Virus record (IMG/VR): IMGVR_UViG_3300017970_000002
Location: 1 to 59,885 of that record
Source: a virus
Reading direction: 5' to 3' (one strand)
Length of the DNA: 59,885 bases
Part shown: in pieces, positions 2,466 to 54,018 of the stretch
Position numbering within the stretch: position 1 is the first letter of the stretch
Layout of the letters: each line of letters opens with the position of its first letter
Notes under the pieces: model-generated
Databases searched by the model: none
The model's input: the letters and a program-made list of their open reading frames with translations, nothing else
What the model was told of the DNA's origin: nothing
Made by a program: the position numbers and the translations under genes

Positions 2466-2480
2466 CTGGTTCCGTCCTCC

Positions 2481-3101: not shown

Positions 3102-3107
3102 GGTCGA

Positions 3108-5883: not shown

Positions 5884-5886
5884 CTG

Positions 5887-6153: not shown

Positions 6154-6259
6154 CGCTTCCTCCTTCCCCGACCGCGCGTTTTATAACGCTATCGGTACAC
6201 AGAGTTTGAAATCAGGTACTACAGATGAACCCTCGGCGTCCGGGCATCATCTGAGGGAG

Positions 6260-6289: not shown

Positions 6290-6292
6290 GTA

Positions 6293-10420: not shown

Positions 10421-12693
10421 AGGTCAAACTCGCCTGAATACTCAAACCTTTCCTCGGGATCGTCCGCTCGCCCGTACTTGAACATACGCGAGATGACGGA
10501 CTCCTGGTCCTCTGGCTTGTACATGTAGGACTGCATCGGCGAGTCAGCAGGAATATCCATGGCCTGGAAGCCAGGGGAGTAGATTGGGTGTTCTAGACGC
10601 CCGCCGATCCGTTCACGCACGTCAGAGAGACCGCGCATCCCTTGATGGATCTCGGTGTCGTAGAGTGAGAGCAGGATGAAGCCGAGGGACATTATCCGGT
10701 CGTCATGGCCGCCGTAGGCTGCTTTCATGTCCTGCGAATCCCAGTCGCGCTCCCAGTCTTCCATCTCCTCGACGAACCACGGCGAGTTGATGTCTATCCA
10801 GCCATCGCGGAGGGCTTTGGTTACCCAATCTACGAGCATGCAGCGGAACCAGTAGACGGTGACGATCCCGAGCTTATGGGCTTTGTGCTTCTGGATGCGT
10901 GCGGAATCGTAGCGCACCCAGGGGTGGAAGTTCACCCAGCCGCGTTTGCGTAGTTCGTTCTGGACGACTTCGCCGTTGCCTTTGCATTCGATCGCCGCGC
11001 GGACTTGACGGCGCATGCCTTCTCGGTAGACCGAGTAATAAGTTCCGACCGCCATGGCGAACGGCCAGAGGTCGAAGGCGTTAGTGTAATCGTAAGCATA
11101 CTCGGCGACTTGCGCGTCATTGCGATAAGTATCTCCTTTCCGCATAAACTCCAGGACTGAACGATCTTGTCCAAGACCGTCAGAGGTATCGCATCCGTAG
11201 CCATAAAGCGCAGTTTCTTCAGGGTGCTCCCAGATGTAGAGTTTGCCGAGTCCATCGTCACTTGAGTAACCCTCCCATTTCACAGGTTGAAAGCAGTAGT
11301 CTAGCGGGAGCCCCGTGCCCCACGTGCAGCGGACGTTGATTGGCGCGATATTACGGTCCCAGCGAGGTTCCGGTACACGAAGGCGGTCTGGGATATCGGG
11401 ACCAAGGATTGTATAAACGCCGAGAGGGTTTCGTGCGGAAGTAGCAGAATGGTAGGCTGCAATCGTCTCGGCGTCGAATACGCTGATATTTGAAGATTGG
11501 AACGCTTCGAGATCATCGGCGGGCATCTCCTGGAAGAACTTGTTCAGCTCCTGCTTGGCTTTGTGCTCCTCGTACTCGACCTCGTAGAACCACATCTGCT
11601 CGCGCGGCATCTGCCAGCCTTCGCCCAGGAATCGGCGCAGGAGCGCATTCACCTTCACGTAGGATCGGGCGCGCTCGGCATGAGCGGTCACCATTGCGTT
11701 CGGCGACCAGTCATGAGGCATCGGACGGGCGCGCAGCCAGGTCTCGGACGGGTAGAGGTCGGTCCCGACGAACCACGGAAGGAAGATGGGGCGCAGGCGC
11801 GAGCGCCCGGAGTCCCAGTTCTCCTTCGCGTACTGCCAGGAGCGGTGCCACCAGTTTCGGCGCCCCATGGCGGTGGATTCGAGGACCAGGAACATCCACG
11901 GGGAATCGTGCATTGCACGCATGAGAGAGGCGTCTACGAGATCCTCGGCGTTTTTGTAGTCCGAGAGTTCGGAGAGATGCGCAACGGTCGGGGTGGTGCC
12001 ACGCGCGATCCCGGTGAACTGCGCACCGTGCTGGATCGAGATCGCAGAGTCCTGGCCGGGGAATTCCATCAGTTCGCCCACAACCTGGCGGATCTCGGGC
12101 TGGAGGTAGAACGGCTGCTCGTCGAAGGCCAGCTCCATCATTCCGGCCATCTTCGTGGACTTATCGGGGTCCGAGGACGAGACTACCGCGTTCACGTGGG
12201 AATAGAATTGCGCGCGGTGGAGCACGCGGAGTTCGGTGTCGGTCGAGACGCCGAGCTGGCGGGCCTTGAGTTCGATGAAGGCGATGGCGATCTGCTGGAG
12301 TTCGTTCTCGGAATCGAGGGTGTGAAGGATACGTTGCGCGACGTTCGGGGAGTAGTGGATCAGGGTGCCATCGCGGGAGCGGATACGTGCGTAGCGGGTC
12401 GCCCAATAATTGAAGTCACAACGACAGACCTGGCGTTCATTGCGTTTCCACTGTTCCTCGTCAGCATGAAGATCCCTCTTCAACTTTCCGGTCTCGGGGT
12501 CAATGAGATCACGGAAGTACCGCGCGGCGCTATCGACTTCGGAAACCGAGTGATACTTTAGCTCGAAGTCGAAGCGCGGTTTGCCCTGAGCGTCACGCGC
12601 TGCTTGCACCTTGGCGAGATTGCGGTCGATTACGGCGCGGTGGTAGATGGCAGAAACTCCTCGATGGCCTGTAGGATAGCGGGCACATCCCAC
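10417..12693 (-). CDS. terL: terminase large subunit
   Basis: This 758-residue packaging motor carries the expected landmarks. There is a Walker-A-like ELKARQLGVST (about 141-151), a Walker B with catalytic Glu in LVLEST (about 269-274), and nuclease acidic residues in GCDTSDGLGQDRS (about 500-512) and HDDR (about 663-666). It hydrolyses ATP to pump DNA through the portal and cuts concatemers. The start is uncertain: the open frame begins at a GTG (12693) with no ribosome site and overlaps the upstream gene by 64 bases. A later GTG near residue 29 is possible. Confidence 0.92.
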   Translation of the reverse strand: MGCARYPTGHRGVSAIYHRAVIDRNLAKVQAARDAQGKPRFDFELKYHSVSEVDSAARYFRDLIDPETGKLKRDLHADEEQWKRNERQVCRCDFNYWATRYARIRSRDGTLIHYSPNVAQRILHTLDSENELQQIAIAFIELKARQLGVSTDTELRVLHRAQFYSHVNAVVSSSDPDKSTKMAGMMELAFDEQPFYLQPEIRQVVGELMEFPGQDSAISIQHGAQFTGIARGTTPTVAHLSELSDYKNAEDLVDASLMRAMHDSPWMFLVLESTAMGRRNWWHRSWQYAKENWDSGRSRLRPIFLPWFVGTDLYPSETWLRARPMPHDWSPNAMVTAHAERARSYVKVNALLRRFLGEGWQMPREQMWFYEVEYEEHKAKQELNKFFQEMPADDLEAFQSSNISVFDAETIAAYHSATSARNPLGVYTILGPDIPDRLRVPEPRWDRNIAPINVRCTWGTGLPLDYCFQPVKWEGYSSDDGLGKLYIWEHPEETALYGYGCDTSDGLGQDRSVLEFMRKGDTYRNDAQVAEYAYDYTNAFDLWPFAMAVGTYYSVYREGMRRQVRAAIECKGNGEVVQNELRKRGWVNFHPWVRYDSARIQKHKAHKLGIVTVYWFRCMLVDWVTKALRDGWIDINSPWFVEEMEDWERDWDSQDMKAAYGGHDDRIMSLGFILLSLYDTEIHQGMRGLSDVRERIGGRLEHPIYSPGFQAMDIPADSPMQSYMYKPEDQESVISRMFKYGRADDPEERFEYSGEFDL

Positions 12694-13862
12694 TTGAACG
12701 GATCGCGGTTACGGAAATAGCGCACATGCGGCCCGTACCATTCGTCAACTAGGGTATCGCGGAACCATTGCCAGCCGGAGTGGCAGGGGAGCAGGATCAG
12801 GGTTGGGACGCCACAGAGCGCGGAGAGATGAGCTACGGCGGTGTCGGCGGTGACTACGTAATCACAGCATTGCACCAAAGCCGTTGTGTCCGTCCAAGTT
12901 GCATCAGGTGCGAGCGTGTAGCAGTACACCTTGTAACCTTTCGCGCCCGGAGACGCGCCAGGAACTAGAGACTCTAATCGACCGCGCGATTGCAAATTAC
13001 AAGCTATGTCACGTGCTGACAGATCGTCTAGCATCTTCGTCTTGCGCATATCGCCGAGTTGCGCAGCGGTCCAACAGAATCCGATGCGTGGTGTCTTATT
13101 ACGTGGCGGCAGGGGTCTATAACACATCTGCGTCCACGCATTCGGCCAAGGCACATCCCCCATCGACCTCATCCCACTCAACGCAGGCAAACTCATCCAG
13201 CTCGTCGAGTAATCGTACTCAAGCTGCAAATCCGCGTCTTTTGAGATAACGCGATCCACGCCGAGTTTCGTCCAATCCGTCCAGTCCTTGAGGCAGTCCC
13301 AGATCATCAACGTGACCTTTGTCGCCCCGGATGCTTTGACAAAGGGTAGCCAGCGCGAGAACAGGAATGCGTCGCCGTATCCGCCTTCGCAGACAACGAG
13401 CACGCGACCGGGCTTGAAGGACGGGTGCCAGGGCGGGGCGACCGGGAACACGTGCCAGGAGTAGTTGATCCGGCCCATTTCCCAGAGCGGCCACGCACGG
13501 GAGAATTCGCGCTCGCGGAGGAGGCATTGCGCGTAGCCAAGTGCGATACGGGTGTTGGAAGGGTCGAGCGAGAAGGCTTTGTCGTAGAGGGATAGAGATT
13601 GCGAGAAATTGCCGAGATCGGATTCCAGGTTCGCGAGGTTGAAATAGGCAACCGGGGAGCGTGGCGAGAAAGTCACGGCTTTGAGGAGGTGATCGCGCGC
13701 GGAGAAGAGGTGGCCTGCGGCGCGTTCGGCGACTGCGAGATTGCAGTAGGTCTTGTAGGATGGGTCGCGCCAGGCGAGTTCGCGCAGGGTTGCGAGCGCG
13801 GATTGCACGTTGCCTTCGGCGAGGGCGGACAGACCAGGCGCATTGGCGAGATGCTCAGACAT
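12630..13862 (-). CDS. TPR protein with GT9-like glycosyltransferase domain
   Basis: The 410-residue protein starts with tetratricopeptide repeats (about residues 15-130, with AYFNLANLESDLGNFSQSL as one clear unit). A Rossmann-like domain follows, containing VVCEGGYGDAFLFSRWLP (about 155-173) and ending in VVTADTAVAHLSALCGVPTLIL. That last segment is the nucleotide-sugar-binding signature of GT-B glycosyltransferases of family 9 (heptosyltransferase-like). Such TPR-GT9 proteins are known in bacteria. Its place in the packaging operon, just before large terminase, is unusual and suggests late expression, perhaps to glycosylate virion proteins. Confidence 0.78.
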   Translation of the reverse strand: MSEHLANAPGLSALAEGNVQSALATLRELAWRDPSYKTYCNLAVAERAAGHLFSARDHLLKAVTFSPRSPVAYFNLANLESDLGNFSQSLSLYDKAFSLDPSNTRIALGYAQCLLREREFSRAWPLWEMGRINYSWHVFPVAPPWHPSFKPGRVLVVCEGGYGDAFLFSRWLPFVKASGATKVTLMIWDCLKDWTDWTKLGVDRVISKDADLQLEYDYSTSWMSLPALSGMRSMGDVPWPNAWTQMCYRPLPPRNKTPRIGFCWTAAQLGDMRKTKMLDDLSARDIACNLQSRGRLESLVPGASPGAKGYKVYCYTLAPDATWTDTTALVQCCDYVVTADTAVAHLSALCGVPTLILLPCHSGWQWFRDTLVDEWYGPHVRYFRNRDPFKWDVPAILQAIEEFLPSTTAP

Positions 13863-13871
13863 CTAGGTATC
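13854..13871. repeat. 18-base stop/start junction repeat, copy 1
   Basis: CTCAGACATCTAGGTATC occurs exactly here and at 14088-14105. In both places it spans the stop codon of one minus-strand gene and the ATG of the next (reading GATACCTAGATGTCTGAG). This could be a remnant of gene duplication or a favoured reinitiation signal. Confidence 0.8.
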
Positions 13872-14096
13872 CATGTCCACGGGCATGTTCATCTCAAAGC
13901 GTAGAAACTCGCCACCGTATATGTTGATGCGAAGGTTGCAGTGCAGCGCGGCATCAACGGGAGCAAATTCGGCGCGCATCTCATTCACCATGTGGGCCAC
14001 AATGAAGCCGGGATCTACAGCTTGCTCCAGGGTTGTCATAGTCAGTAACCGCACTAGGCACCAACCACGAGCCGCCCATTGCATAGACTCAGACAT
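13863..14096 (-). CDS. small unknown protein
   Basis: The 77-residue product has no recognised domain. The ATG is at 14096, immediately after the stop of the previous gene (TAGATG), implying reinitiation. An alternative start is the Met at 14039 (MTTLEQAVDP). An 18-base sequence around its start is duplicated at the start of the TPR-GT gene, described separately. Confidence 0.5.
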   Translation of the reverse strand: MSESMQWAARGWCLVRLLTMTTLEQAVDPGFIVAHMVNEMRAEFAPVDAALHCNLRINIYGGEFLRFEMNMPVDMDT

Positions 14097-14105
14097 CTAG
14101 GTATC
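14088..14105. repeat. 18-base stop/start junction repeat, copy 2
   Basis: Second exact copy of the sequence at 13854-13871, again at a TAGATG junction between genes. The flanking bases differ. Confidence 0.8.
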
Positions 14106-14330
14106 GGCCTCGTGTGCCATTTTCTCAACTTCGTCAGGTGTGAAATTAGCGTAGCCACCCTGCTCCTCGATCGGAGTTTCCCACTTCCAGCAATGAAACC
14201 ACCAACGTTGCCAAGAATATGGTCGCCACAGTGCCAACTGCAATATCGGGTCACCTGAGGCGCGTGGCTTGTAGAAAAATGTCAGCCAGAACCACGGCGT
14301 GTTCCAGTCAAAGATGCGTAGTCGTCTCAT
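14097..14330 (-). CDS. small Trp-rich protein
   Basis: The 77-residue protein is strikingly rich in tryptophan (about ten, including the run WQRWWFHCWKW) and starts with basic residues. It may be a membrane-associated protein. It is coupled by a 4-base ATGA overlap to the candidate small terminase gene upstream and by TAGATG to the next gene. I do not recognise a family. Confidence 0.5.
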   Translation of the reverse strand: MRRLRIFDWNTPWFWLTFFYKPRASGDPILQLALWRPYSWQRWWFHCWKWETPIEEQGGYANFTPDEVEKMAHEADT

Positions 14331-15136
14331 ACATCGGCCCCCTCGCCAGATCTCACATGACCACTTCGGATCACCTCGGTAAATTCAAGCGTGTCATCCT
14401 CCATCGACTCTAGGCCATCGTCCAGCCTACCCGCCTTAGCCATAGACCGGGCGCTCGCCATCGCCGCAGCCTTCACATTGATGGATGTCCCGGCAGGCGT
14501 CGGCAGGAATCCGCTCGATTTCAGCAGCGCCTCCCTATCCTTGAACCCGTCCTTCTTCTTCGCGAACTTGACCATGTGCTGGATCACCTCGGTCTGGTTG
14601 ATCGAGCGCACGAAGGACGCGGATACACTATCGACCTCGACAGCAGTCTGGCAGGCGAGGCCGAACATTTTGCCGGGCGTGACGCCGACCGCATCGCAGA
14701 AGTCATGGAGGCCGATGGCTTTGCGGCGCTGCCCGCTCATATCGTTCCAGGCAAGGATCATGATCATGCGCGGGTCCTCGGGACCGAGATCGAGGCAGGC
14801 GAACAGGCGGAATACGTTCTTCCAACCACCGGGGACGATCTTCTGGAATAGGACCGATACAGACTCCTCGTAGCCTCGCGGGGCTTCGATGCGGGGTAGG
14901 GATTCATCGGGATCAGGAACCAACGTAATTGCCGGGATCTCCGGTGCCGTCCTCGTCGAGCCAGGCGGGAACGTCGAGGGGGTCGTCGCGGTCGTAGACG
15001 CCGGTCCGAGTGATTTGAGAGCGGTCCTCCAGTTTTCCACTTTCTTGCGCGTCCGCTTGACGCTCTCCCATGACTGGTGCGGCGGTTGTGGTTTCGCGCC
15101 CGATGGTTGATCCTTCGTGTCCTGATCCATAGCCAT
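14327..15136 (-). CDS. candidate terminase small subunit
   Basis: The 269-residue product has a disordered Pro/Thr/Ser-rich N-terminus (about 1-85) and a helical core. The core has ...AIGLHDFCDAVGVTPGKMFGLACQ (about 140-165) and a region with INQTEVIQHMVKFAKKK. A mostly helical protein of this size upstream of large terminase in the same operon fits a small terminase that recognises pac DNA. No diagnostic motif is visible, so the call rests on context. The start has GGAG 5-6 bases upstream. Its first 75 codons overlap another gene in a different frame. Confidence 0.5.
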   Translation of the reverse strand: MAMDQDTKDQPSGAKPQPPHQSWESVKRTRKKVENWRTALKSLGPASTTATTPSTFPPGSTRTAPEIPAITLVPDPDESLPRIEAPRGYEESVSVLFQKIVPGGWKNVFRLFACLDLGPEDPRMIMILAWNDMSGQRRKAIGLHDFCDAVGVTPGKMFGLACQTAVEVDSVSASFVRSINQTEVIQHMVKFAKKKDGFKDREALLKSSGFLPTPAGTSINVKAAAMASARSMAKAGRLDDGLESMEDDTLEFTEVIRSGHVRSGEGADV

Positions 15137-20695: not shown

Positions 20696-20898
20696 CCGAG
20701 ATCCAAATCCGGCGTGCTTGCAAAAAGCCAAAGCCTCGTTCAAGTAATCAGCTAGGCCACTTCAAGGCCATAGAGTGCCCCGACTGTGGCGCACCTGCTT
20801 ATGAAGGCAATAAGATACAACACGTACGCGTGTATGAATGGGTACCGCTCACATCTCTGGCTAAGCTGACGGCGGGGAAAGGTGAGGTGGAGGGATGA
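20692..20898 (+). CDS. small protein with CxxC
   Basis: The 68-residue product has a basic N-terminus and one CPDC pair (about residues 29-32). It may be a one-knuckle zinc protein or a metal-binding dimer. It is linked by ATGA overlaps on both sides, directly before the first glycosyltransferase gene. Confidence 0.55.
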   Translation: MTEIQIRRACKKPKPRSSNQLGHFKAIECPDCGAPAYEGNKIQHVRVYEWVPLTSLAKLTAGKGEVEG

Positions 20899-21650
20899 GC
20901 GAACTCACGATCGCGATCACATGTTATAAGCGCCCGGAGCTGCTCAAAGGGTTGCTGGAGTCGATTGCGCAAGCTGATCTGACACATGTCGTGCGGTTCG
21001 TCGTAAGTGTAGACTGGCACTCGGATGAGATGTTCATGCGCATGTGCGACGTGTTTAGGCAGTCAGTCGGGGACCTCGGCGCGCGTGGTTGCCGTTTGTG
21101 CAAACAGGCGTATCGGCTCGGTATACATAACCACAATCGCTGGTTGATAAATGAAGCCTTCAACGCGCATAAGGCCGAGGCCGTGGTCATGTTGGAGGAG
21201 GACTGCGTAGTCGCGCCTGATGCGTTAAACTTTGCGTGGTGGGCGTTGCAGCAGAATGGCGCGATCGTAAACCTAGGTGGCAAATGGTCCGATGGCGTCA
21301 GACATGCCGTACGTGGTACGCACCTTATCGAATCCGCAGGCTGGGCGGTCACTCGCGAGAACTGGCAACAGATCGAGCCTTACTGGAATGGCAAGATGCG
21401 CATGCCTGTCGGCTGGGACTGGTCACTCTCGTACCTCTGCTACGTGCGCGGATGGGACACAATCGATCCACTAGTCGCGCGAGTGAAGAACGTCGGTCGA
21501 ACGAATGGTACGTATCAGACAGCAGCGGATTATGACCTGGATCGCGCGAATGTCGTACTGGCGACCGGGATACCGAAGGAGTACACGCTGCTGGAGGGCG
21601 AACCGGATCGGACTTGGCCTGAGTGGGTGAAAGAGGAGGCACGGCTGTGA
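20895..21650 (+). CDS. GT-A type glycosyltransferase
   Basis: The 251-residue protein opens with the nucleotide-sugar-binding strand LTIAITCYKRPELLKGLLES. It carries an acidic metal-binding motif LEEDCVVAPD (about 97-106), the equivalent of the DxD motif, followed by a WWAL helix. The layout resembles GT2/GT13-type (N-acetylglucosaminyltransferase I-like) GT-A enzymes. It would transfer a sugar from a nucleotide donor; the acceptor is unknown. It is joined by a 4-base overlap to a second glycosyltransferase, so the two probably act in sequence. Confidence 0.75.
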   Translation: MSELTIAITCYKRPELLKGLLESIAQADLTHVVRFVVSVDWHSDEMFMRMCDVFRQSVGDLGARGCRLCKQAYRLGIHNHNRWLINEAFNAHKAEAVVMLEEDCVVAPDALNFAWWALQQNGAIVNLGGKWSDGVRHAVRGTHLIESAGWAVTRENWQQIEPYWNGKMRMPVGWDWSLSYLCYVRGWDTIDPLVARVKNVGRTNGTYQTAADYDLDRANVVLATGIPKEYTLLEGEPDRTWPEWVKEEARL

Positions 21651-22384
21651 AACTTGTTGTGCTGTCCTCGTGCTATCAACGTCCAGATCTCCTCGCGACA
21701 CTCGCCGAGTCCTGCCAGCTATTCAGGCATGATCTGATCCTGGTCGAAAAGCCCGGAGCCGCATGGACCAACTGCCGCGAAGGGAAACTCATCGCCGCGC
21801 GCGACAAGCTGAAGGAGCTGGCGACGGCTGGTGTCTATACGCACGCGCTGTGGACCGATGGCTTTGACTCGTTCATGTGCCAGCCACTACATGCGATTGC
21901 ACGTGAGCACGCTGCGATGGGTAGCCCAGAGATCATCCTGTCAGCCGAGAAGAACTGCTTTCCTGACGCCACACTAGCCAAGCTCTACCCACTGCAAGAC
22001 TCGCCTTGGGAGTTCGTATGCGCTGGCGGCTGGCTGGTCGAGATATCAGCGCGCGTCTGTGGTGTCTTCGATCAACTCTGCGCTGAGGAGTCGCCGGAAG
22101 ATCAGCTTACCTGGGCGCGCGCGTATGTCAATGGATTCGTCGGCGGAATGGCAACGCTCGATGTAGGATGCAGGATATTCCAGACGATGTGGGGGACCTC
22201 GGAGTTCGACGAGGTGACCGTTACGCCAAAAATCAACGGTGATGTGGTGAATCACGTCACGGGAAGTCATCCTTGCGTCATTCACTTCAATGGCTCAGGC
22301 CCAGATCATCCGACTCAGCGTTATTTGAGCATGTGGCAGCGTTTGTGGTTCGCAAAGCAGCTTCCAGGATCACTGCAAGCATGA
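21647..22384 (+). CDS. PLOD/GT25-like glycosyltransferase
   Basis: The 245-residue protein has a GT-A pattern reminiscent of procollagen galactosyl/glucosyltransferase-like domains. There is a start VVLSSCYQRPDLL, a donor motif WTDGFDSFM, then SAEKNCFPD, a CAGGWLVEI segment (about 128-136) and a late HFNG. I chose GTG at 21647 because it overlaps the previous stop (GTGA) and has GAGG upstream; an ATG at 21623 is possible. The conserved D-x-D, Cys-Phe-Pro and Gly-Gly motifs support activity. It is the last gene of a two-gene glycosylation unit. Confidence 0.72.
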   Translation: MKLVVLSSCYQRPDLLATLAESCQLFRHDLILVEKPGAAWTNCREGKLIAARDKLKELATAGVYTHALWTDGFDSFMCQPLHAIAREHAAMGSPEIILSAEKNCFPDATLAKLYPLQDSPWEFVCAGGWLVEISARVCGVFDQLCAEESPEDQLTWARAYVNGFVGGMATLDVGCRIFQTMWGTSEFDEVTVTPKINGDVVNHVTGSHPCVIHFNGSGPDHPTQRYLSMWQRLWFAKQLPGSLQA

Positions 22385-30021: not shown

Positions 30022-30033
30022 GGAGTGGATTAT

Positions 30034-31317
30034 ATGGAAGACCGCAACGTGGAAGTCGAATTTGTGTCGGGCGCGGCTGGCTCGGGCAAAACCTTCGAGA
30101 TGAAACGCCGCATCGCCGAGGACCCGCATTTCGGCATCCTGACCTCGACGACCGGCGTATCCGCGATCAACCTCGACACGGTGACCGTTCACAGCAAATT
30201 GGGCTTCTACGACACGGACAGCCTGCTCGATGCCTACACCTCTGGTAAGCTCCAGCGCCGACTCCGCGCGCTCCATTCCGAGGGCTACCGACGCCTCGTG
30301 ATCGATGAAGTCTCGATGCTTCACGCGCGGCAGCTAGACACACTCTACCTCGCGATCAACGAGGTCAATGTAGGGTCTACGTTCGCCGCGCTCGACCCAC
30401 CGCTCGGGTTGGTCCTGACCGGCGACTTCTGCCAGCTCCCCCCAGTCAAAGGCGAATGGGCATTCAAGGCGCAGTGCTGGCCGGATTTCGCCGCGCACAC
30501 AACGAGGTTGACGAAGATCTGGCGCCAGGCCGATGTCGGGTTTCTGGAGGCGTTGAATCTCGCGCGGTCAGGTGATGGTGTGGAGACCGCTGCGTGCCTC
30601 AAGCACCTGAACTGCAACTTCTCGCTCGGCCTCGACCTGAACTTCGATGGGACCACGATCGTCGCGAAGAACGCCGAAGTCGATCGCTACAACAATATCC
30701 GCATGGCCGCGATCAAGGAAGAGCCGATCAAGCTCGTGAACACGCGATGGGGGCTGCAACTGAGTGACTGGAAGAACATCCCCGAGACGCTGACGGTGAA
30801 GCCTACGGCGCTGGTGATGCTGCTGGCCAATAATAAGGACGAGGCTGGTGGATTTGTGTACGTGAACGGGGACCTCGCGCATGTGTCAGCCGTAGAGGAC
30901 TTCGGTGAGTTCAAGCTGATCGCTATGACCCTGTTGCGTGGCGACAAGAAGGTCGCGGTAGGGCAGATTACACGTCAGAACCTTTCAAAGCAGGAGCCAT
31001 CCGAATCCATGATCGCGCAGGCGCGCCTCAACGGAGACCGCGATCCTTACTTCGACGAGCAACGCAACCGCTGGGTCCTAGGCGAAGTCTGCTACTGGCC
31101 CATGCGGCTCGGGTACGCTTCCACCGTTCATAAATCGCAAGGGTTGTCGCTCGACCGCGTACAGATCGACTGCCGCGATGGGTTCTTCGGCGCGAACAAT
31201 TTGGCGTATGTGGCATTGAGCCGCGCACGGACGGTAGCAGGCATGCGCGTCGTTGGCTCGCCTGAGATATTGGCAAGACGGATCAATCTTGACTCGGAGG
31301 TGAAGGATTGGCTATGA
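30034..31317 (+). CDS. SF1 helicase, Pif1/RecD/Dda-like
   Basis: The 427-residue helicase shows Walker A GAAGSGKT (13-20), Walker B VIDEVSML, motif III GDFCQLPPV, motif V-like STVHKSQGLSLD and motif VI YVALSRART. It unwinds DNA 5'-3' in replication or recombination, as T4 Dda does. I chose ATG 30034 (GGGAG 8 bases before it) over the GTG at 30025. There is no exonuclease domain. It is coupled by ATGA to the next gene. Confidence 0.88.
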   Translation: MEDRNVEVEFVSGAAGSGKTFEMKRRIAEDPHFGILTSTTGVSAINLDTVTVHSKLGFYDTDSLLDAYTSGKLQRRLRALHSEGYRRLVIDEVSMLHARQLDTLYLAINEVNVGSTFAALDPPLGLVLTGDFCQLPPVKGEWAFKAQCWPDFAAHTTRLTKIWRQADVGFLEALNLARSGDGVETAACLKHLNCNFSLGLDLNFDGTTIVAKNAEVDRYNNIRMAAIKEEPIKLVNTRWGLQLSDWKNIPETLTVKPTALVMLLANNKDEAGGFVYVNGDLAHVSAVEDFGEFKLIAMTLLRGDKKVAVGQITRQNLSKQEPSESMIAQARLNGDRDPYFDEQRNRWVLGEVCYWPMRLGYASTVHKSQGLSLDRVQIDCRDGFFGANNLAYVALSRARTVAGMRVVGSPEILARRINLDSEVKDWL

Positions 31318-31529
31318 ATGAGCACCTAGAGGTAAGACTCGTGGAGGCGCTGGAGAGCATCGCGTCATCGTTCGCGAAGATTGCCTATGTAATCAACAGC
31401 GAGAGCATACGCTTATTCGTGAGCTTTGGTGATGGCGCCAACGAGGATGCGCCATTCTGTGTAGAAGCGAACCTGTACACCGGCGAGCATACGCGGCCTG
31501 TTAAGGTGGCCAAGGACATCATCAAATGA
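31314..31529 (+). CDS. small unknown protein
   Basis: The 71-residue protein has a helical N-terminus (LEVRLVEALESIASSFAKI) and a beta-rich C-terminal part. It starts at ATG 31314 in an ATGA overlap with the helicase stop and overlaps the glycosyltransferase-sulfotransferase gene by 4 bases. No domain recognised. Confidence 0.55.
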   Translation: MNEHLEVRLVEALESIASSFAKIAYVINSESIRLFVSFGDGANEDAPFCVEANLYTGEHTRPVKVAKDIIK

Positions 31530-32974
31530 ACAGTCAGCCTAGGATCGCATTCTGCACGACCTGCAAAGGCCGCGCGCAACACGTCGAGGAGACGCTGCCG
31601 AAGAACCTGCTCGACAACTGCGGATATCAGAACGCCGTGTTCATTATCCTCGATTACAACTCGCAGGATCACCTGCTGGAGTTCGTGAAGACGCGGCATT
31701 CCAAGGCACTCAGCAGCTGGCGACTGGTTGTCTATAGCTACCGCGTGGACACTTCATTCCACTTGTCCCACGCGAAGAACATGGCGGCCCGGCTCGGTAT
31801 CCTCGAAGGCGCCGATATCCTCGTGACCATGGATGCCGACAACTTCACTGGCCCAGGATTCGCCCAATTCATTGCCGAGAAGTTCAAAGCCGCGCCACAG
31901 ACGCAGCCAGGGATGTTCCTGTCGCCCAACTTCCCGCTGATCCATTCCCTCCCCTACGGCCCGAGCCGCCCGCTGCGGGGCTTCGCCGGGCGCCTCGCAA
32001 TCCGCGCGCAGGACTTCGTGAAGATGGGCGGCTATGACGAGACCTTCGATACCTGGCGTGGCGAAGACATCGACATGATCTCGCGGCTTGAGAAGGTGGG
32101 ATACCGTGCGCAATTCATTGATAACAGCTATCTTATCGTCATCCCTCACAACGCCGCCGTCCGCTTCAAGGAGTACCCACACGCGCGGGAGTTGTTTGAG
32201 AATAAAGGTCAACTGAAGGTCATCGACAAGCGCACTGTAACGGTCGTCAATTACGGGCGCTGGGGCGTTGGCACTGTGTACAACAGCTTCACGAACAAGG
32301 AGGTTAAGCTGCTCCCATTACCTACGCGCATCTTCGGAATCGGACTACACAAGACCGGCACGACTTCGCTCGATGCTGCATTCAAGATCCTTGGGTACGA
32401 TAGTTTGCATTGGGGCACCGGCGAGGCTCCTAAGATCTGGAATGAGATGCACTCGACCGGTCACTCGAAGACGCTTGAAGCCTGGTACGCGTTCTCGGAT
32501 CTCCCTATCCCAGTGCTCTACCGCGAGCTGGATAAGGCATACCCTGGATCGAAGTTCATCCTCACGATTCGCAATGAGCAGGCTTGGGTCAAGAGTGTCG
32601 AGAAGCTCTGGGACCCGAGGTACAACCCAACCCGTTGGATGTGGGACGTTTACCCATTCAGCAACCGGGTGCACAAAGCACTCTACGGGCGCGAGGATTT
32701 CGATCGAGACACGTTTCTTGCGCGATACCGCAGGCACAATCAAGAGGTCCAGGGGTACTTCAAGAGTCGGCCAGATGACCTATACGTCATGGACATTGAC
32801 AAGGAAGACAAGTGGCCGGGATTATGCGCTTTCCTCGGTGTCCCTGAGCCATCTGTTCCGTATCCGGCCAGTAACGTAACAACCAAAGCGCCGGTTGAAG
32901 TTCCAGCGGCGCGCATGGCATGTCAGCAGCACATCGTGAAAAGCATGCAGGGCGTGTACGGAGATGGCATATGA
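31526..32974 (+). CDS. glycosyltransferase-sulfotransferase fusion
   Basis: The 482-residue protein joins two enzymes. Residues about 1-255 form a GT2-like fold with a DAD metal motif (103-105) and a family 7 C-terminal-like signature GGYDETFDTWRGEDIDM (about 168-184). Residues about 265-440 match sulfotransferases: the PAPS 5'-phosphosulfate loop GLHKTGTTSL (273-282) and the 3'-phosphate strand FILTIRNEQAW (344-354). A single phage protein would add a sugar and then a sulfate, using host nucleotide-sugar and PAPS. The substrate is unknown. It lies between helicase and polymerase, and ATGA overlaps link it on both sides. Confidence 0.8.
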   Translation: MNSQPRIAFCTTCKGRAQHVEETLPKNLLDNCGYQNAVFIILDYNSQDHLLEFVKTRHSKALSSWRLVVYSYRVDTSFHLSHAKNMAARLGILEGADILVTMDADNFTGPGFAQFIAEKFKAAPQTQPGMFLSPNFPLIHSLPYGPSRPLRGFAGRLAIRAQDFVKMGGYDETFDTWRGEDIDMISRLEKVGYRAQFIDNSYLIVIPHNAAVRFKEYPHARELFENKGQLKVIDKRTVTVVNYGRWGVGTVYNSFTNKEVKLLPLPTRIFGIGLHKTGTTSLDAAFKILGYDSLHWGTGEAPKIWNEMHSTGHSKTLEAWYAFSDLPIPVLYRELDKAYPGSKFILTIRNEQAWVKSVEKLWDPRYNPTRWMWDVYPFSNRVHKALYGREDFDRDTFLARYRRHNQEVQGYFKSRPDDLYVMDIDKEDKWPGLCAFLGVPEPSVPYPASNVTTKAPVEVPAARMACQQHIVKSMQGVYGDGI

Positions 32975-33243: not shown

Positions 33244-33428
33244 CGCCGAAGCGTTACCTACTCGTATACAATCCTGGACTCATCAGCGCGGCTGATATTG
33301 GCAAAGCGCAGGAAGCTCTTGTTGAGGCAAGTGTCCAACTTATTCCACTCCCCCTCGATCCCAACTCTGGTAAGTCGGCCTATAAGCTGATCGATCTCGA
33401 CAACGTAGAGAAGAACTTCTCGGAATGA
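33240..33428 (+). CDS. small unknown protein
   Basis: This 62-residue protein starts at ATG 33240 and is coupled by ATGA on both sides, to the gene before and to the polymerase. It begins KRYLLVYNPG and has a helix followed by a strand. Function unknown; the coupling suggests a role with the polymerase. Confidence 0.6.
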   Translation: MTPKRYLLVYNPGLISAADIGKAQEALVEASVQLIPLPLDPNSGKSAYKLIDLDNVEKNFSE

Positions 33429-36340
33429 AATCCATCCCAGGCTACCCACTCGATCAAGACGTTCGTATCATTGAGCCATCCGGTACTGGCTCCCTGCGCG
33501 TTCTGGCCATGGGCGAGGCTGGTGGTCGTCACGAAGCGCGTCTCGGTCACCCGTTCGTCAAGCACGCTGAAGCCGGGTCAGTGCTCGAACGCGCGCTGCG
33601 CTTTGCTGGGATTGATCGCGACCAGCTCACCATCACGAATGCAGTCTGGTGGCAACCCCCTAACGACTACCTCGATGGCGCCTGGTACGAGCACAAAGCC
33701 ATCAGCATGTGCCGCGAGTGGAATGATGCGCTGATCGAGGAGCGCCAGCCGAAGTGTCTCCTAGCCCTAGGCGGCATCCCAATGCGCGAACTGAGCGGCA
33801 TGTCGGGCTACCGGGAGGGGATTCTCATGCTACGTGGCTACCCGATCAAGTCGCCGCGTTATGGCATCCCCGTCCTCGGTACTTACCACCCGTCCTATCT
33901 GCGGCGCGGCGAGAAGCAGGAGTCCGAGGAAGGCGCAGACGTAGAGTCAGCAGCCGGACGTGGCATGGATCTCATGGGCGTGCTCATCCACGATATCCAG
34001 TACGCTGTGAAGCTCGCGCGGGATGGGATGCCAGTGCGCCCGGAGCCTCCGCGTCATGTCCTATTCGGCACGCACGAGACCTTGCTGCGGTTCTACGAGG
34101 ACGCCCTCGCGCACCCGGAGCTGCCGATCGCATGGGACATCGAAACCGACCAGTTACTGGCGGCTGAGGACGAGAGCGAAATGGAGCGCTTAGTCCTGAC
34201 CGACGCCGTGACTCAGATCCAGTTCAGCCTGCGCCCGTCCGATGCATGCGTGTTCCGCTGGACCGATGACTTAGCCGACCTCGTGGTCAAGCTCATGCGC
34301 CTGCCTAACCCGAAGCTCGACTTCAACGGCAGATTGAGTGACCGCCCGATCCTGCGCCAGTTCCTTCGCGACAAGGGCCACGAAATCCGTTACTGCGGCG
34401 ACAACCACGATCTGATGGACATGTGGCACCATGCGCAGCCGGATTACCCCAAGGGCTTGCAGCATGTGACGAGTTACTTCGCCAGTTTCCTCGGGCCGTG
34501 GAAGCACTTGAACATCGCGGATCGTGGGTTGTATGGCGCACTCGACGCCGAGAGCCTGCAATGGATCTACAGGAAGTTGCCGGGGGATCTCAGGAAGCTC
34601 GGGATCTGGGATGGGTACGAGCGGCACGTGCTGAAGCTGTCACGCACGCTGGATAAGGTGACGGCGATTGGTATCCCGATCAATGATGAGAAGCGCGTCG
34701 AGTTTGGCAAGGATCTGGATATCGAGAAAGCCGCACTCGAACGGGAATTGCAGAAGCTCGTGCCTGAGGATATCAGGCCGGTACATCCGAAGGAGGGTTG
34801 GAAGAAACTGCCGGGTGCCGTCAAAGCCGACCTGCTTACGTGGAACCTGTATCACAACCCGCAGTCGTGTTTGATGGCACTGGACGCGCTGCCGGATCGT
34901 ATCGAGACAGCCATAGGCACCGTGTACGTCCGTCGCGAATTTGGCGAGATCGACCAGACCGCAATCTGCGAGAACCGCGTGTGCCGCTGGTGCCGACTCG
35001 AACCATTCAACCCGAATTCGCCCGATCAGATCAAGCTGTACATCGAGTTCAAACGCAAGGAGGAAATCGATGCGCTCATCCGGAAAGGATGGGACCGCAA
35101 AAGGGCCGAAGCCAAAGCGAAGTACAAGGTCCCGCGCAACTTCAAAACGGATAAGGAGACCACGGGCAAACGAGAGCTGCTACGACTTGCGAAAGCCACT
35201 GGAGATCAGCTTTTTCCCAGTACCGTCCACATACGTGAATTTGGGAAGCTCAAAGGTACATACGTTGACGGTTGGGCGCCTACTGATGATAAGAGGGCGC
35301 ATTCAACTTTCGGATTTGCCCCAGCCACTTCTCAGTTGTCTAGCGAAAATCCAAACAGCCAAAACGTCCCGAGTGAGAAGTCAAGAGGGGCTGCGATTTC
35401 TCCAACTATTGTTAAGCTGGCTGAGAGGTTCAGAGGGATTATCGAAGCCCCAAGTGGCTTCACTCTCATTGAGTTCGATTGGAGAGCTTTCCACGCCCTA
35501 ATGCTCGGCTTCGTCGCGCAGGACCCGACCTACATGCGCCTCGCGCGCCTCGATATCCACTCCTACTTCGCCGCGTGTGGTATCCTCAAGATCGCGAATG
35601 GTGACAAGCTGCTTGTGATGCCAGACGCCGAGCTAGCCTCCTACCTCGCATGGGTCAAGAAGACGCACCCCGTGGTCCGCGACGGCCAAGCGAAACCCGC
35701 GATCCTCGGCTACGGTCTCGGGATGCGCGGCTATACGCTCTGGCAGCACAACCTAGAATCGTTCTCGGGCCGCGTCGAAGCCGACCGCGTGCTCGACCAG
35801 CTCGATGGCGAGTTCCCGGTGACCGCCAAATTCCGCCGCGCTGCGCTAGAGGAAGCGAATTATGGCAACGAGCATCACGGGCCGAACTGCCTCGTCCTCA
35901 AGCCCTGGTCGATCCGGCGCTTCTGGTCAGTCTACGAGAACAAGCCCGTGACCGATGCCTACCGGCCCAAGAAGGGCGAGAAGGTCTTCGTAGACTCACA
36001 GAAGCAGTACTGGAAGGTAGGCCACGGGTCCGACGCCGAAGCCGCGATCTCCTTCTACGTGCAGAATTCAGCGCACGGCCACATGAAGGAGAACATGCTG
36101 GCGATCGACGACGCGGGCTGGCTCGAACGCTATGGTATGTGCAACACGGTGCATGACGCGTTCTGGTTCTGCTGCCCGAAGGAACTGGCCGAGGAGTGCT
36201 ACGTGAACGTGAAACCGCAGATGGAGGCACCATCGACCGTGCTCAAGAATCCGGTGATGCCCGAGGGGTTCTGGTGCGCTGTGGATGCGACGATTGGGCC
36301 GACGATGAGATCAGCCGACCGGCGGAAGTTCCGTGTCTAG
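33425..36340 (+). CDS. family A DNA polymerase with N-terminal UDG-like domain
   Basis: The 971-residue replicase has three parts. Residues about 20-165 look like a family 4/5 uracil-DNA glycosylase (GEAGGRHE, ITNAVWWQPPND, TYHPSYLRR). Residues about 230-390 are a 3'-5' exonuclease (D238-x-E240, later YCGDNHDLMD and LYGALDAE). From about 630 comes a Pol I palm: SSENPNSQNVP, motif A IEFDW with D685, motif B R752/K757/YG, and motif C VHDAF (H910, D911). In motif C the usual Glu after Asp is Ala912. A CxxxxCxxC (515-523) is extra. A similar UDG-Pol fusion is known in SPO1-type phages. Confidence 0.88.
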   Translation: MKSIPGYPLDQDVRIIEPSGTGSLRVLAMGEAGGRHEARLGHPFVKHAEAGSVLERALRFAGIDRDQLTITNAVWWQPPNDYLDGAWYEHKAISMCREWNDALIEERQPKCLLALGGIPMRELSGMSGYREGILMLRGYPIKSPRYGIPVLGTYHPSYLRRGEKQESEEGADVESAAGRGMDLMGVLIHDIQYAVKLARDGMPVRPEPPRHVLFGTHETLLRFYEDALAHPELPIAWDIETDQLLAAEDESEMERLVLTDAVTQIQFSLRPSDACVFRWTDDLADLVVKLMRLPNPKLDFNGRLSDRPILRQFLRDKGHEIRYCGDNHDLMDMWHHAQPDYPKGLQHVTSYFASFLGPWKHLNIADRGLYGALDAESLQWIYRKLPGDLRKLGIWDGYERHVLKLSRTLDKVTAIGIPINDEKRVEFGKDLDIEKAALERELQKLVPEDIRPVHPKEGWKKLPGAVKADLLTWNLYHNPQSCLMALDALPDRIETAIGTVYVRREFGEIDQTAICENRVCRWCRLEPFNPNSPDQIKLYIEFKRKEEIDALIRKGWDRKRAEAKAKYKVPRNFKTDKETTGKRELLRLAKATGDQLFPSTVHIREFGKLKGTYVDGWAPTDDKRAHSTFGFAPATSQLSSENPNSQNVPSEKSRGAAISPTIVKLAERFRGIIEAPSGFTLIEFDWRAFHALMLGFVAQDPTYMRLARLDIHSYFAACGILKIANGDKLLVMPDAELASYLAWVKKTHPVVRDGQAKPAILGYGLGMRGYTLWQHNLESFSGRVEADRVLDQLDGEFPVTAKFRRAALEEANYGNEHHGPNCLVLKPWSIRRFWSVYENKPVTDAYRPKKGEKVFVDSQKQYWKVGHGSDAEAAISFYVQNSAHGHMKENMLAIDDAGWLERYGMCNTVHDAFWFCCPKELAEECYVNVKPQMEAPSTVLKNPVMPEGFWCAVDATIGPTMRSADRRKFRV

Positions 36341-48388: not shown

Positions 48389-49510
48389 TCAGCTCAGTGT
48401 CCCGACGATCTCGCCATTGTGGGTATTGTGCACCCCGTATAGCCTGACAAAGAACGCAGTTGGGTGCGCTACCTGGCCGATACCCCAGTACGATGCGTCA
48501 AAGATCGGCCCAGTCCACGGATGGTTTGTCAGTGGATTCAGCTCGTAGATGAAGAACCACGGGCTATAGGCAGTATTCGGCTCGTACGTATCCGCGTTGT
48601 CGTCGTAAGGCGTGCCATCGATCGAGATGTAGGGCTGCGCCCATTCATCGCCCACTGTCGAGCGCGTCTGGTGCACAAGCAGAATAGCGAGGATGTCATC
48701 AGTCGTGGCTAAAGTCGGCGAGAGTGTGTAGTCGTCTACGTTCCCGATACCTGGCGACTGGTTGTACGCGGTATCGTCGGATGCTGGTATCTGATGCACG
48801 TTCTGCCAGTTCTCGTTTGTGGCCGGGAACGGAGACCATTCGTCCACGTCACCTTCGGCGCTTGTAATCGAGCAGATCACCGAGGAGTCTCCAGCGGCGG
48901 TAGTCAACCCATTTCCGTCGTCTGGATTCACGAGATAGAAGTCGTCAAACAGGTTAATCGAGCCACCAGGTGCACCCATGAGATAGACCCATTCGGCACC
49001 CGGCAACGGCTGACCCTGCGTCGCCAGATACCCGCTGTACACGAGCACCCCGTCGATCCAGATCTCATTGAGTGCGCCACCCTCGTTGAACCCTGTGCGC
49101 CACTCGATGTAATGATAGACCTCGGGCTGAATCAGCGGACCATTTGGGCTCGTCGTCGCTAGGATCGCCCCGTTGGTCGTTTGCTGAATACTCAGCGTGC
49201 CATCGAGTAACGCGTTCAACTGGCACTGATACTGGCTGCCAAGGACTTGAGCGAACGCGCAGATCGGCGTATCCGGTGGCCCAGTGTTGGTCCAGAACGC
49301 GAACCCTACGATCACGTCAACAAGGATCGCTCCCATGCTCCGCGCCACACCGCCAGGGCGAGGTGCCATGGCACCAGGCCCAGTACGCGCAGGCGCATTT
49401 GGCAGATTGGTAGCGATATTGGCGTTGCCGACGATCGACTGGTCCTGCCAGTACTCAGTAAGCTCGCTGGTCACGTAGCCATCGAATGAGTCGATCAGGA
49501 GGATGCTCAT
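48389..49510 (-). CDS. LamG-like fibre protein (paralogue 2)
   Basis: The 373-residue protein starts MSILLIDSFDGY and has NEIWIDGVLVYSG (about 147-159), FDDFYLV and DVDEWSPFPATNENWQNVHQ (about 218-237). These line up with paralogue 1. It overlaps the nozzle protein gene by 4 bases. The pair probably arose by tandem duplication, then diverged. Role as in paralogue 1. Confidence 0.65.
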   Translation of the reverse strand: MSILLIDSFDGYVTSELTEYWQDQSIVGNANIATNLPNAPARTGPGAMAPRPGGVARSMGAILVDVIVGFAFWTNTGPPDTPICAFAQVLGSQYQCQLNALLDGTLSIQQTTNGAILATTSPNGPLIQPEVYHYIEWRTGFNEGGALNEIWIDGVLVYSGYLATQGQPLPGAEWVYLMGAPGGSINLFDDFYLVNPDDGNGLTTAAGDSSVICSITSAEGDVDEWSPFPATNENWQNVHQIPASDDTAYNQSPGIGNVDDYTLSPTLATTDDILAILLVHQTRSTVGDEWAQPYISIDGTPYDDNADTYEPNTAYSPWFFIYELNPLTNHPWTGPIFDASYWGIGQVAHPTAFFVRLYGVHNTHNGEIVGTLS

Positions 49511-52443
49511 ATGATCGCCCCCATACGCCGGGATTGGTCGCCGAACGGCTGCACGATCTTATACGGATCACGCCGCCCCCATGGCCCTACGCGCAACGAG
49601 CAGTCCTTGTGGAACAGTCGGAACGGGATCGTGGAGGTTAGTGCGTAATTCACGATCTTGCCCTTCATCGGCTGAAGGACTTGATAGAGCTTCTGCTGGA
49701 ATACCGCGCCTTGTGTCGTCGCCGGGAAGGTGTAGTTAAACACCGCGCCGTCGTCGTAGCGCGTCACTCCAAGATTCACGGCTGCGGAGGCGATTAGCGC
49801 GAGATATGCGTCCCGATGATGGAAGAACTCGGTGAAGTCGTGCGTTGTCGGCTGCGTAATCCAGTTGAGTGCGAGGTCCGGCGCAGGCTCCCAGATCCAA
49901 CGGATCTTGAACAAGCGCCACATGTCAGGATCGGTGGGAAGGATGCGGATCAGGCGCGAGATGAACGGAGAGGTGAACGAGAACGGCTGCTCTTGCCGGT
50001 TGGTAGCAGTGAACGCAAAGGTCTGCGCGAGGATACCACCACCGTCGAATTGTACCTGAAGCGAACGTGTGATCCCGAGCGTGTCCCCCTCGATGTAAAA
50101 GCCTTGGAAGAACTTCGCGCCAGGGTAGCCATCGTCGGTCCAGTTCGATGCGCGCAGAATCGTCAGCTCGGGCATCGGCTCGTAGCTTGGTTCCCATGTG
50201 AAGAATGCAGGCCGTCCAATAGAAGTCGTCCACGAGATGTCGAGGCCAATCGACATCGCGTACTGGCCCTCGCCGTTATTGATGTCGATGATCGACTGAC
50301 GCCGCCCGTTGAGGTTCGTGCCCGCGAGCGTCTCAACCGAAAAGTAGAGATACTGATCGAAGCCACAATCGATCATGAGCGTCTCGCACTGTGAGTCGTA
50401 ATCCAGCCAGACATCACCCCAGAGCTTGCGTGGACGCGGGTCCTTGGCGCTCACGGCGATCGTGCGGATGTGCCCGAATATCCCGACGCCGTTGTCGGTC
50501 ACGTTCGCCGAGTACTGGTAGGACATGCCATTGGCTGCGCCCATGTAGCACTCGTGGATGCCTTCGCCTGTGACAATTGAGTCGCCGCCTTCGCCCGCGT
50601 AGTGCATCGTTATCGGTGGGGTGTAAGTATCGCGCGAGACCCAAGCACCAGTTTGTGTGTTGTGGACCAGAGTACGCCGCGTGCCGGACTGATCGATATA
50701 GTCGTAGTAGAGAAAGCCGTCCACATACTCCAGCCGCTGTGCCGTCTCCATCGTGTCATCTGGCGGTGAGAACGGCCCGCCGACACCGTAAGGAGTCGCC
50801 TGCTGACCATCTGCTACGAATACCTGGCCTTCGCCCAGCCCGGACTCGTGCGGGAATATTGAGTACATGCTCGCGTCGGTGATTGAGGTCGGCGCGCCGC
50901 CATTCGTCAGGTAGATCCCATCGCGCGCACGGAAATAGATCCCAAGTGGCCCAACAGCGATCGCCCATCGCATGTAGAGCCCCTTCGAGTTAGGGATCTC
51001 GATCGCGATGAAGTCCGTCGCTGAGCCGAAGGTCGGGTAGATCTGGAAGCAGCGCTCGGATGAGAACACGTAGGGATTACCACCCCACATGCAACCGTTC
51101 TGAAGCGGTTCGGACGGCTGCGTGATATCGAGGACGTTCGAGTCGGGCGCGCACTCAGGCCGGTTGCCCTTGGTCCAGTGGAGCGCGCCAAGGCGGTAGA
51201 TATCGCCCACCGCGAACACGAAGGTACCGGACTCGCCACCGCCATATGGCCCCCAGATGAACGGGAGCGGTACGTGCCATATCTCAGGGGATGGCATCAG
51301 GAAGGTGCCAGAGGTCGCGCCTGCCGGTGTCTCGACGAGTTCGACGGTCGTCGCAGAGGTCGGCGCGCGGTAGAACGTGTACGCTTGGCCCCCCACGAAG
51401 ATCGCATTACCGTAACCAAAGTAGGGCTGATCGAGGTCGGCTGGGTTGTACCATTTGAACTGCGCAGCGGAAGTGATTGTGAGGATCGCGCCGCCTTGGG
51501 CCTGTGGGGCAAGCGTACACGTGCCCGTGAGTCCTTGGTCAAAGGTTGGGAATGGCTGGAAATCGTCTGTATCCATCAACGGCTGGTTCGCGGCTACTGC
51601 ATCGTTGAAGGTGTCAGTCACGGTCGAGCCAGCATAGTTCGAGCATGAGCCGATGTAGACCCAGTTAGTGAGGGAGCCGCCGAATCGGAACACATCGAGG
51701 TAGACCACGGCAGGATCAGGATGCGCTGTGACGATGGTGACCACAACGTTCGCGCCCATGGGGGATACACCGGTCGGAGTGCCTGTCGCGGACAGATTGC
51801 GCATCGACGGGCCGGTGTTCCCATATTCGCCGGTTTGGATGTCGCCCGCCTTGCGCCCACGGTAGCGATAGACGTAGGGGACGCCAGTCGTGCCAACGTT
51901 CGGCCCGTTAGCGTTAGCGGCGCCGATCGCGGCGGTAGGTGGATCGTTAGGAGGCGACACCCCATACTGGAACGGCTGCACGTTTGAGGACGTAATCCGC
52001 ATCTTCGCCGAGTCGCCGATAATCATCCACGGACGCGGGCCGAACGACGGCTTGAAGATCAGGAGCGCGAGGGGATTGCCACTGTAGCCGTTGTCCACCA
52101 GATTGCTACACGAGGGAGGGTTGCCCGAGGTGTAGTTGCCAGAGCGGAGTTCGCTGCCATCACCCTTGAACAACACCTGCTCGGCGAATGCAGCCGGAAA
52201 CTGAGGAGGCGGCGGAATCGGATCGTTCAGCAGCTTCATCGAAGTGATCGGATTCGCCGCTGCGTAGGTATCCGCAGGCATGATCGACGGGCGGCCTAGA
52301 ATCTGCTCTTCGCCGTACGGGCGCACGTTTTCGAGCATCCTGTACATGCCCGCGCCCATGCGATCGACTGGAGCTGAGAGGTTGATGCCATGGCAGACGA
52401 ACGGCTGAAGATCCCGTTTCCATTTGGAGGTGTCAACCGGCAT
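49507..52443 (-). CDS. large nozzle / tail hub-like structural protein
   Basis: The 978-residue protein is beta-rich throughout with Gly/Asn/Tyr-rich loops. It has an N-terminal ENVRPYGEEQILGRPSIM and a RKAGDIQTGEYGNTGPSMRN segment (about 196-215). LWGDVWLDYDSQCETLMID lies later (about 690-708). Size, composition and position between adaptor and fibre genes fit the large tail-nozzle/stabilizer protein (P22 gp10 or T7 gp12-like) found in podoviruses. No enzymatic domain was seen. This is a class-level assignment. Confidence 0.62.
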   Translation of the reverse strand: MPVDTSKWKRDLQPFVCHGINLSAPVDRMGAGMYRMLENVRPYGEEQILGRPSIMPADTYAAANPITSMKLLNDPIPPPPQFPAAFAEQVLFKGDGSELRSGNYTSGNPPSCSNLVDNGYSGNPLALLIFKPSFGPRPWMIIGDSAKMRITSSNVQPFQYGVSPPNDPPTAAIGAANANGPNVGTTGVPYVYRYRGRKAGDIQTGEYGNTGPSMRNLSATGTPTGVSPMGANVVVTIVTAHPDPAVVYLDVFRFGGSLTNWVYIGSCSNYAGSTVTDTFNDAVAANQPLMDTDDFQPFPTFDQGLTGTCTLAPQAQGGAILTITSAAQFKWYNPADLDQPYFGYGNAIFVGGQAYTFYRAPTSATTVELVETPAGATSGTFLMPSPEIWHVPLPFIWGPYGGGESGTFVFAVGDIYRLGALHWTKGNRPECAPDSNVLDITQPSEPLQNGCMWGGNPYVFSSERCFQIYPTFGSATDFIAIEIPNSKGLYMRWAIAVGPLGIYFRARDGIYLTNGGAPTSITDASMYSIFPHESGLGEGQVFVADGQQATPYGVGGPFSPPDDTMETAQRLEYVDGFLYYDYIDQSGTRRTLVHNTQTGAWVSRDTYTPPITMHYAGEGGDSIVTGEGIHECYMGAANGMSYQYSANVTDNGVGIFGHIRTIAVSAKDPRPRKLWGDVWLDYDSQCETLMIDCGFDQYLYFSVETLAGTNLNGRRQSIIDINNGEGQYAMSIGLDISWTTSIGRPAFFTWEPSYEPMPELTILRASNWTDDGYPGAKFFQGFYIEGDTLGITRSLQVQFDGGGILAQTFAFTATNRQEQPFSFTSPFISRLIRILPTDPDMWRLFKIRWIWEPAPDLALNWITQPTTHDFTEFFHHRDAYLALIASAAVNLGVTRYDDGAVFNYTFPATTQGAVFQQKLYQVLQPMKGKIVNYALTSTIPFRLFHKDCSLRVGPWGRRDPYKIVQPFGDQSRRMGAII

Positions 52444-52651
52444 CCGACATAGCCTCCAGCTTCAGGGTACGTTCAACTGCGCGTTTAGCTGAATCAATGT
52501 CACGGAACCGCCCACAGGTGAACGCGGAAGTACCCACGTAAGCCAGCCAGCAGCACCCCTTCTTTACGATGCGCCCGACGATCTGATTCGCGCCGTCATA
52601 ATAGACGAACTCAGTCATGTAATTGACCCAGCGCGGCTTGCCGTCTCGCAT
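52433..52651 (-). CDS. small unknown tail-locus protein
   Basis: The 72-residue product (start Met 52651, GAAGG upstream) is beta-rich with EFVYYDGANQIVGRIVKKGC and a helical C-terminal part. It overlaps the nozzle gene by 11 bases. No family recognised. Confidence 0.5.
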   Translation of the reverse strand: MRDGKPRWVNYMTEFVYYDGANQIVGRIVKKGCCWLAYVGTSAFTCGRFRDIDSAKRAVERTLKLEAMSDAG

Positions 52652-52652
52652 G

Positions 52653-54017: not shown

Positions 54018-54018
54018 A

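Follow-up and report, generated by a model that had tools for sequence, protein, structure and literature searches.

A predicted glycosyltransferase-sulfotransferase fusion protein in environmental phages and its partial linkage to APS kinase

Sulfotransferase genes have been reported in phages with their function stated to be unclear (PMC10580990), and viral cysC has been interpreted as a gene of assimilatory sulfate reduction (PMC10127799). A sequence-only reading of the virus record studied here had held that sulfation is rarely reported for phages; this has to be qualified, as the genes themselves are on record, with a function stated as unclear (PMC10580990). It turned out that a phage fusion of glycosyltransferase and sulfotransferase (GT-ST) has no description in the open-access literature searched, outside which lie most subscription papers and all preprints. 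Within the literature searched, what is new is a phage-borne fusion of known enzyme families together with a linked PAPS supply in some carriers. The sequence that carries it, called the window below, is the whole of the 59,885-base virus record IMGVR_UViG_3300017970_000002, whose genes include those for terminase, portal and major head protein as well as a replication block. The conserved sugar-plus-sulfate protein, with a PAPS-making enzyme linked to it in some phages, leads to a concrete hypothesis that phages make sulfated glycans.

The fusion gene and its two domains

The fusion gene (31526-32974, + strand) is a single intact frame of 482 aa, whose ATG at 31526 overlaps the stop of the upstream gene as ATGA and whose own stop ends at 32974. 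These are exactly the coordinates and the frame given in the sequence-only reading, which had also placed a sugar-transfer domain and a sulfotransferase in this one frame. Both domains are confirmed by Pfam and by the AlphaFold2 folds, and the motifs quoted at that time are all found (DAD at residues 103-105, GGYDETFDTWRGEDIDM at 168-184, HKTGTTSL at 275-282 and ILTIRNEQAW at 345-354). In Pfam, Sulfotransfer_4 (PF17784) matches residues 268-453 with E=6.2e-37 and 127.9 bits against a cut-off of 22.8, covering profile positions 1-213 of 215. The N-terminal half matches Glyco_transf_7C (5e-9) and Glyco_tranf_2_2 (1.1e-6) (PF02709/PF10111), the GT7 profile being matched partially, at positions 20-67 of 78 only. 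The GT-A glycosyltransferase domain is placed at about residues 1-255 (31526..32290, +) and the PAPS sulfotransferase domain at about residues 266-452 (32321..32881, +). Like Pfam, phmmer supported both halves; a PDB sequence search returned Cpz8, SgdX2 and Schistosoma sulfotransferases, and PHROGs gave only a weak galactosyl-transferase match for the fusion (E=0.003).

For the AlphaFold2 model of the whole protein, 47 sequences were used, namely the window together with viral contigs and a single MAG contig. The model has a mean pLDDT of 91.5 and a pTM of 0.89, with both folds at high confidence and the sulfotransferase part mostly above 90 in pLDDT. The sulfotransferase fold is present in the C-terminal half: in a Foldseek search of the PDB sulfotransferases rank first, including Cpz8 with PAP, Schistosoma SULT (E 6e-12) and SgdX2 (TMt 0.76). 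Low whole-query TM-scores are expected here, because each sulfotransferase target spans one domain. For the GT half, Foldseek returned heparosan synthase 2, K4 chondroitin polymerase, CHSY3-CHPF1, beta4GalT1 and ppGalNAc-T2, with bacterial glycosaminoglycan (GAG) synthases as the best fold matches. A GAG synthase proper, in which two GT domains make an alternating polymer, was rejected as a candidate because the protein has one GT domain in both Pfam and the model.

Conservation was counted in an alignment of 51 sequences, the window protein plus 50 relatives. D103, D105, D181, H208, T277, T279, H295, D325, W354 and H383 are invariant (51 of 51), and with 82 positions kept at a level of at least 96% the fusion gene is, on this alignment, far above chance. 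In the GT domain, the predicted metal/NDP-sugar DxD motif is DAD (residues 103-105; 31832..31840, +), in which both aspartates are kept in 51 of 51 sequences and A104 in 50. The GT2/GT7-type acidic motif WRGEDID (residues 177-183; 32054..32074, +), a putative acceptor/catalytic site, has D181 and an E or D at position 180 in all 51 sequences and D183 in 50 of 51; the other subfamily reads WxPDDKD at this place. In the sulfotransferase domain, the PAPS-binding residues are conserved in the relatives, both in the predicted 5'-phosphosulfate loop HKTGTTSL (residues 275-282; 32348..32371, +; T277 and T279 in 51 of 51, S281 in 49) and in the 3'-phosphate-binding signature from R349 to S357 (32570..32596, +; R349 in 50 of 51, W354 in 51, S357 in 49), but 39 of the 51 sequences have Ala in place of the loop glycine G278 and so deviate from the usual loop. 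The sequence-only reading had named a missing sulfotransferase fold, or PAPS-loop residues that vary in close relatives, as grounds to refute it; both points were checked, and the reading withstood them. D325 (32498..32500, +), kept in 51 of 51, is aligned with the Asp of the Schistosoma sulfotransferase. In SmSULT both oxamniquine enantiomers place the accepting hydroxyl to hydrogen-bond with Asp91 (PMC4618941), and the alignment suggests that D325 is the equivalent of Asp91 and the probable catalytic base.

A chance ORF or a frameshift fusion is ruled out, as the same two-domain architecture recurs in 48 additional viral contigs and in 2 MAG contigs, nearly always uninterrupted. The exceptions are L060/G043, with a broken ST half, and G045 (L062), listed with one stop within the match. 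In the one suitably close pair, L028 and L029, both domains are under purifying selection (GT: dN 0.016, dS 0.353; ST: dN 0.026, dS 0.232). Besides, the pairwise distances of the GT and ST domains covary (Mantel r=0.68; 0 of 2000 permutations), which indicates that the two domains travel together.

Distribution among phages and genomic context

The relatives were collected by iterative search: the window protein alone found one (L001), an alignment of these two sequences brought nine loci, eight with the fusion, and a nine-sequence alignment 59 loci, mostly fused. Beyond the window, the fusion is carried by 48 viral contigs of up to 265 kb, at 42-63% identity, and by 2 MAG contigs (L077 and L078). 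The carriers are mostly uncultured contigs whose viral label comes from IMG/VR, backed by nearby phage structural genes in some. L077 is nearly identical to the viral contig L047 (0.995), and L078, where bacterial genes flank the fusion on one side, may mark the edge of a prophage in an alphaproteobacterium, which is a guess. The remaining viral and cellular GT relatives found have no ST domain within their loci. One ORF of a Chitinophagaceae MAG (L079:8297-11845) contains several tandem copies of the GT domain. In tblastn against 50,697 phage records, only a single partial match to the GT was obtained, and none with the ST domain as the sole query.

Recent gain from one host is unsupported: a first genome scan confirmed no relative, and a second returned 2 fused MAG contigs and otherwise GT-only relatives, both scans using conserved-peptide patterns (GT motifs only in the second) that diverged cellular fusions or ST-only relatives could escape. 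When the first ten records were compared, one of them read in part and some of them short, the fusion was the only gene that the window has in common with the others, with the exception of L005, in which the helicase and polymerase of the window recur in the same order. The presence of the fusion in genomes with little else in common implies horizontal movement between phages. In the tree, the window falls in a nine-member clade (support 98/91) with L032 as its sister. The best reading of these sequence comparisons is a mobile phage-borne family that is widespread in environmental phages.

In the window, the fusion gene belongs to a forward gene run, outside the structural block, between a Dda-like helicase (30025..31317, +; phrog_325, E=1e-52) and a protein that combines UDG and family A DNA polymerase (33425..36340, +; PF03167, PF00476), both in synteny with L005. 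At the same place L005 encodes a protein 54% identical to the UDG-polymerase of the window. Tunturiibacter phage Tunturi_1, which infects Tunturiibacter psychrotolerans (Acidobacteriota), has morphogenesis proteins with about 27-35% identity to those encoded in the window at 1065-12693 and 49507-55437; the values include 32% for the terminase, 29% for the portal and 31% for the head protein. This likeness suggests an Acidobacteriota host for the window phage.

The other sugar genes named from the sequence are real according to Pfam. They are a TPR protein with GT9 (12630-13862), in which GT9 is barely above the cut-off (22.4 against 22 bits), and a pair of adjoining genes at 20895-22384, for a GT2-type protein (20895-21650; 4.7e-12) with weak GNT-I/MGAT2 similarity and a PLOD-type GT (21623-22384; 2.6e-19). 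The TPR-GT9 gene and the terminase gene (10417-12693) have 64 bases in common.

APS kinase and other linked genes

APS kinase makes PAPS, the sulfate donor. An APS kinase gene follows the fusion directly downstream on the same strand in 6 of the 49 viral records, with gaps from -7 to +989 bp, and its P-loop, DGD and FTG motifs are all kept in the six carriers. The count leaves out a weak APS-kinase match (1.8e-5) far from the fusion on the 265-kb contig L003; in the window no APS kinase was found. All six kinase genes are less than 1 kb from the fusion, for which the chance under random placement is about 9e-9, a rough value that assumes such placement and should be read with five independent cases, as L028 and L029 are close relatives. 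Five of the six carriers are in the clade of the window (98/91), including its sister L032, and L006 is in the other main clade; the APS-kinase label shows no clustering in the tree beyond chance. With one carrier APS kinase as query, tblastn matched 5 of 50,697 phage records.

For the reciprocal test, 50 other viral records with APS kinase were searched, of which 18 have a Sulfotransfer_3/4 match, 11 of the 50 within 5 kb, while 32 have no Sulfotransfer_3 match at E<=0.001. The counts of 18 and 11 mean that the link between sulfotransferase and APS kinase is partial, not universal. The 32 records without a match, and the published interpretation of viral cysC (PMC10127799), would suit an APS kinase that serves assimilatory sulfate reduction in the linked loci too and adjoins the sulfotransferase by accident. 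The 11 records with a match within 5 kb, and the rough chance of 9e-9 for six carrier kinases all within 1 kb on the same strand, argue against it, and we regard such an accident as quite improbable. The linkage to APS kinase gives indirect support to the PAPS-dependent sulfuryl transfer predicted for the fusion.

In L108 (G065:1134-3643), about three Sulfotransfer_3 genes stand in a row behind a viral APS kinase, and in G060, G062, G069, G082 and G092 APS kinase and Sulfotransfer_3 are also within 1 kb of each other.

A papain-fold protein is the other recurrent neighbour. It is adjacent to the fusion in 16 of 51 loci, which include every one of the six APS-kinase loci (Fisher p=4e-4, an optimistic value with related loci counted separately), for instance at L006:12341-13150, L027:12049-13035 and L031:12102-12929; none was found in the window. 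The family corresponds to phrog_19005, of unknown function in PHROGs, and xylellain, a cysteine protease, is the closest match to its model (pLDDT 88.4). A relative in phage MW202816 adjoins an amidase gene. Comparison of Pfam domains near to and far from the fusion placed APS kinase and epimerases near it and ordinary phage genes farther away, in small counts. In L008 an NDP-sugar epimerase/dehydratase and a DegT aminotransferase are on opposite sides of the fusion. Near the fusion in L001, a large ORF (12828-14432) has, by eye, the look of an FkbM-type methyltransferase with GT2.

We tentatively propose that the GT-ST fusion, the APS kinase and the papain-fold protein form a dedicated mobile sulfoglycosylation module, which would move between unrelated phages, some of them larger than 200 kb, and coat virions or infected cells with sulfated sugar. 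If this is true, part of the viral cysC genes assigned to assimilatory sulfate reduction would be PAPS supply for sulfation. In this way an alternative reading is offered for some viral cysC genes that are now counted as sulfur assimilation.

Predicted function, target and comparison with known systems

Taking sequence and model together, we regard the fusion as a likely bifunctional enzyme, which would attach a sugar and sulfate it, with its product either on a virion protein or at the surface of the host. The GT-A domain would move a sugar onto an acceptor through its DxD and (E/D)D motifs; this sugar is probably a hexose or an N-acetylhexosamine, with a UDP-sugar as the probable donor. The ST domain would then pass the sulfuryl group of PAPS to a hydroxyl, most simply one on the newly attached sugar; D325 would be the base, and the loop 275-282 together with R349 and S357 would hold PAPS. 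PAPS would come from the host in the window phage and from the phage APS kinase in some relatives, and the product would be a sulfated glycoconjugate. The catalysis, its order, the donor sugar, the position of the sulfate on the same sugar and the acceptor are all points that we infer.

Several points run counter to this bifunctional reading: the window has no APS kinase, the loop glycine is replaced by Ala in most relatives, and the two domains could use different substrates. The tethered domains might even act on small molecules and yield, for example, a sulfated metabolite, as Cpz8 (caprazamycin) and SgdX2 do in natural-product pathways, and these two are the bacterial sulfotransferases among the matching solved structures. 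We think this unlikely, as the window shows no recognisable biosynthetic cluster, the fusion is kept across phages without any other common gene, and the GT and ST distances covary.

As the target of the predicted bifunctional enzyme, the virion and the host surface are given equal weight, and DNA very little. If the target is the host surface, the enzyme would sulfate LPS, capsule or exopolysaccharide and block superinfection by rival phages. This possibility, which we hold with some doubt, agrees with the gene's place in the window and L005, where it is part of the replication block and away from the structural genes, with the epimerase and aminotransferase flanks in L008, and with the interpretation of phage epimerase/GT clusters as modifying capsule or O-antigen against rivals (PMC7824862). 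However, the Pfam and PHROGs scans of the window recognised neither a membrane flippase nor a GtrA-like gene, and the TPR-GT9 gene overlapping the terminase gene hints at glycosylation near the morphogenesis genes.

That overlap, together with the three further GT genes of the window, would rather fit a sulfated sugar on capsid or tail proteins, which would give the virion a charged coat and influence its stability or adsorption. For mycobacteriophage Maravista, GT genes have been taken to suggest capsid glycosylation (PMC11256854), and the papain-fold neighbour in 16 of 51 loci, with its relative beside the amidase gene in MW202816, fits late functions. The location of the window gene outside the structural block speaks against a virion target, and no acceptor protein was identified; we hold it to be possible in the same doubtful degree as the host surface.

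The sequence-only reading had preferred protein or cell-surface glycans to DNA. In its favour, no DNA-hypermodification enzyme was found by Pfam among the window proteins scanned; the preference is reasonable, although the gene lies between helicase and DNA polymerase in both the window and L005. This location would suit a GT that decorates a hydroxymethylated base to which the ST adds sulfate. Such a role is highly improbable in our view: the window proteins scanned include no base-hydroxylating or hydroxymethylase gene recognised by Pfam, which diverged enzymes could escape, the nearest folds are glycan synthases and glycan/protein GTs, and in other phages the fusion has other neighbours.

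Compared with described systems, the fusion and the phage Sulfotransfer_3 genes of OM43 phage genomes and Synechococcus phage S-SRM01 (PMC10580990) are both phage-borne PAPS sulfotransferases, but the latter belong to a different Pfam family (PF13469) and no GT fusion is mentioned for them. The polysaccharide-modification clusters of jumbo phages and cyanophages (PMC7824862) likewise encode GTs and NDP-sugar enzymes, while the review mentions no sulfotransferase, PAPS or APS kinase. The viral cysC auxiliary genes (PMC10127799) are of the same enzyme family as the APS kinase found here, which differs in adjoining a sulfotransferase. With Cpz8 (9kf1/9kf2), SgdX2 (8y9p) and Schistosoma SULT (4mua, 5tiv), the ST domain has in common the fold, the PAPS loop, the R...S 3'-phosphate site and the acceptor-site Asp; these enzymes stand alone in their solved structures, whereas the phage domain is fused to a GT. 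The GT domain shares the GT-A fold, the DxD and the acidic (E/D)D motif with Pasteurella heparosan synthase 2, K4 chondroitin polymerase, beta4GalT1 and ppGalNAc-T2, at an identity of 13-15%, and differs in being without a second GT domain of the polymerase type.
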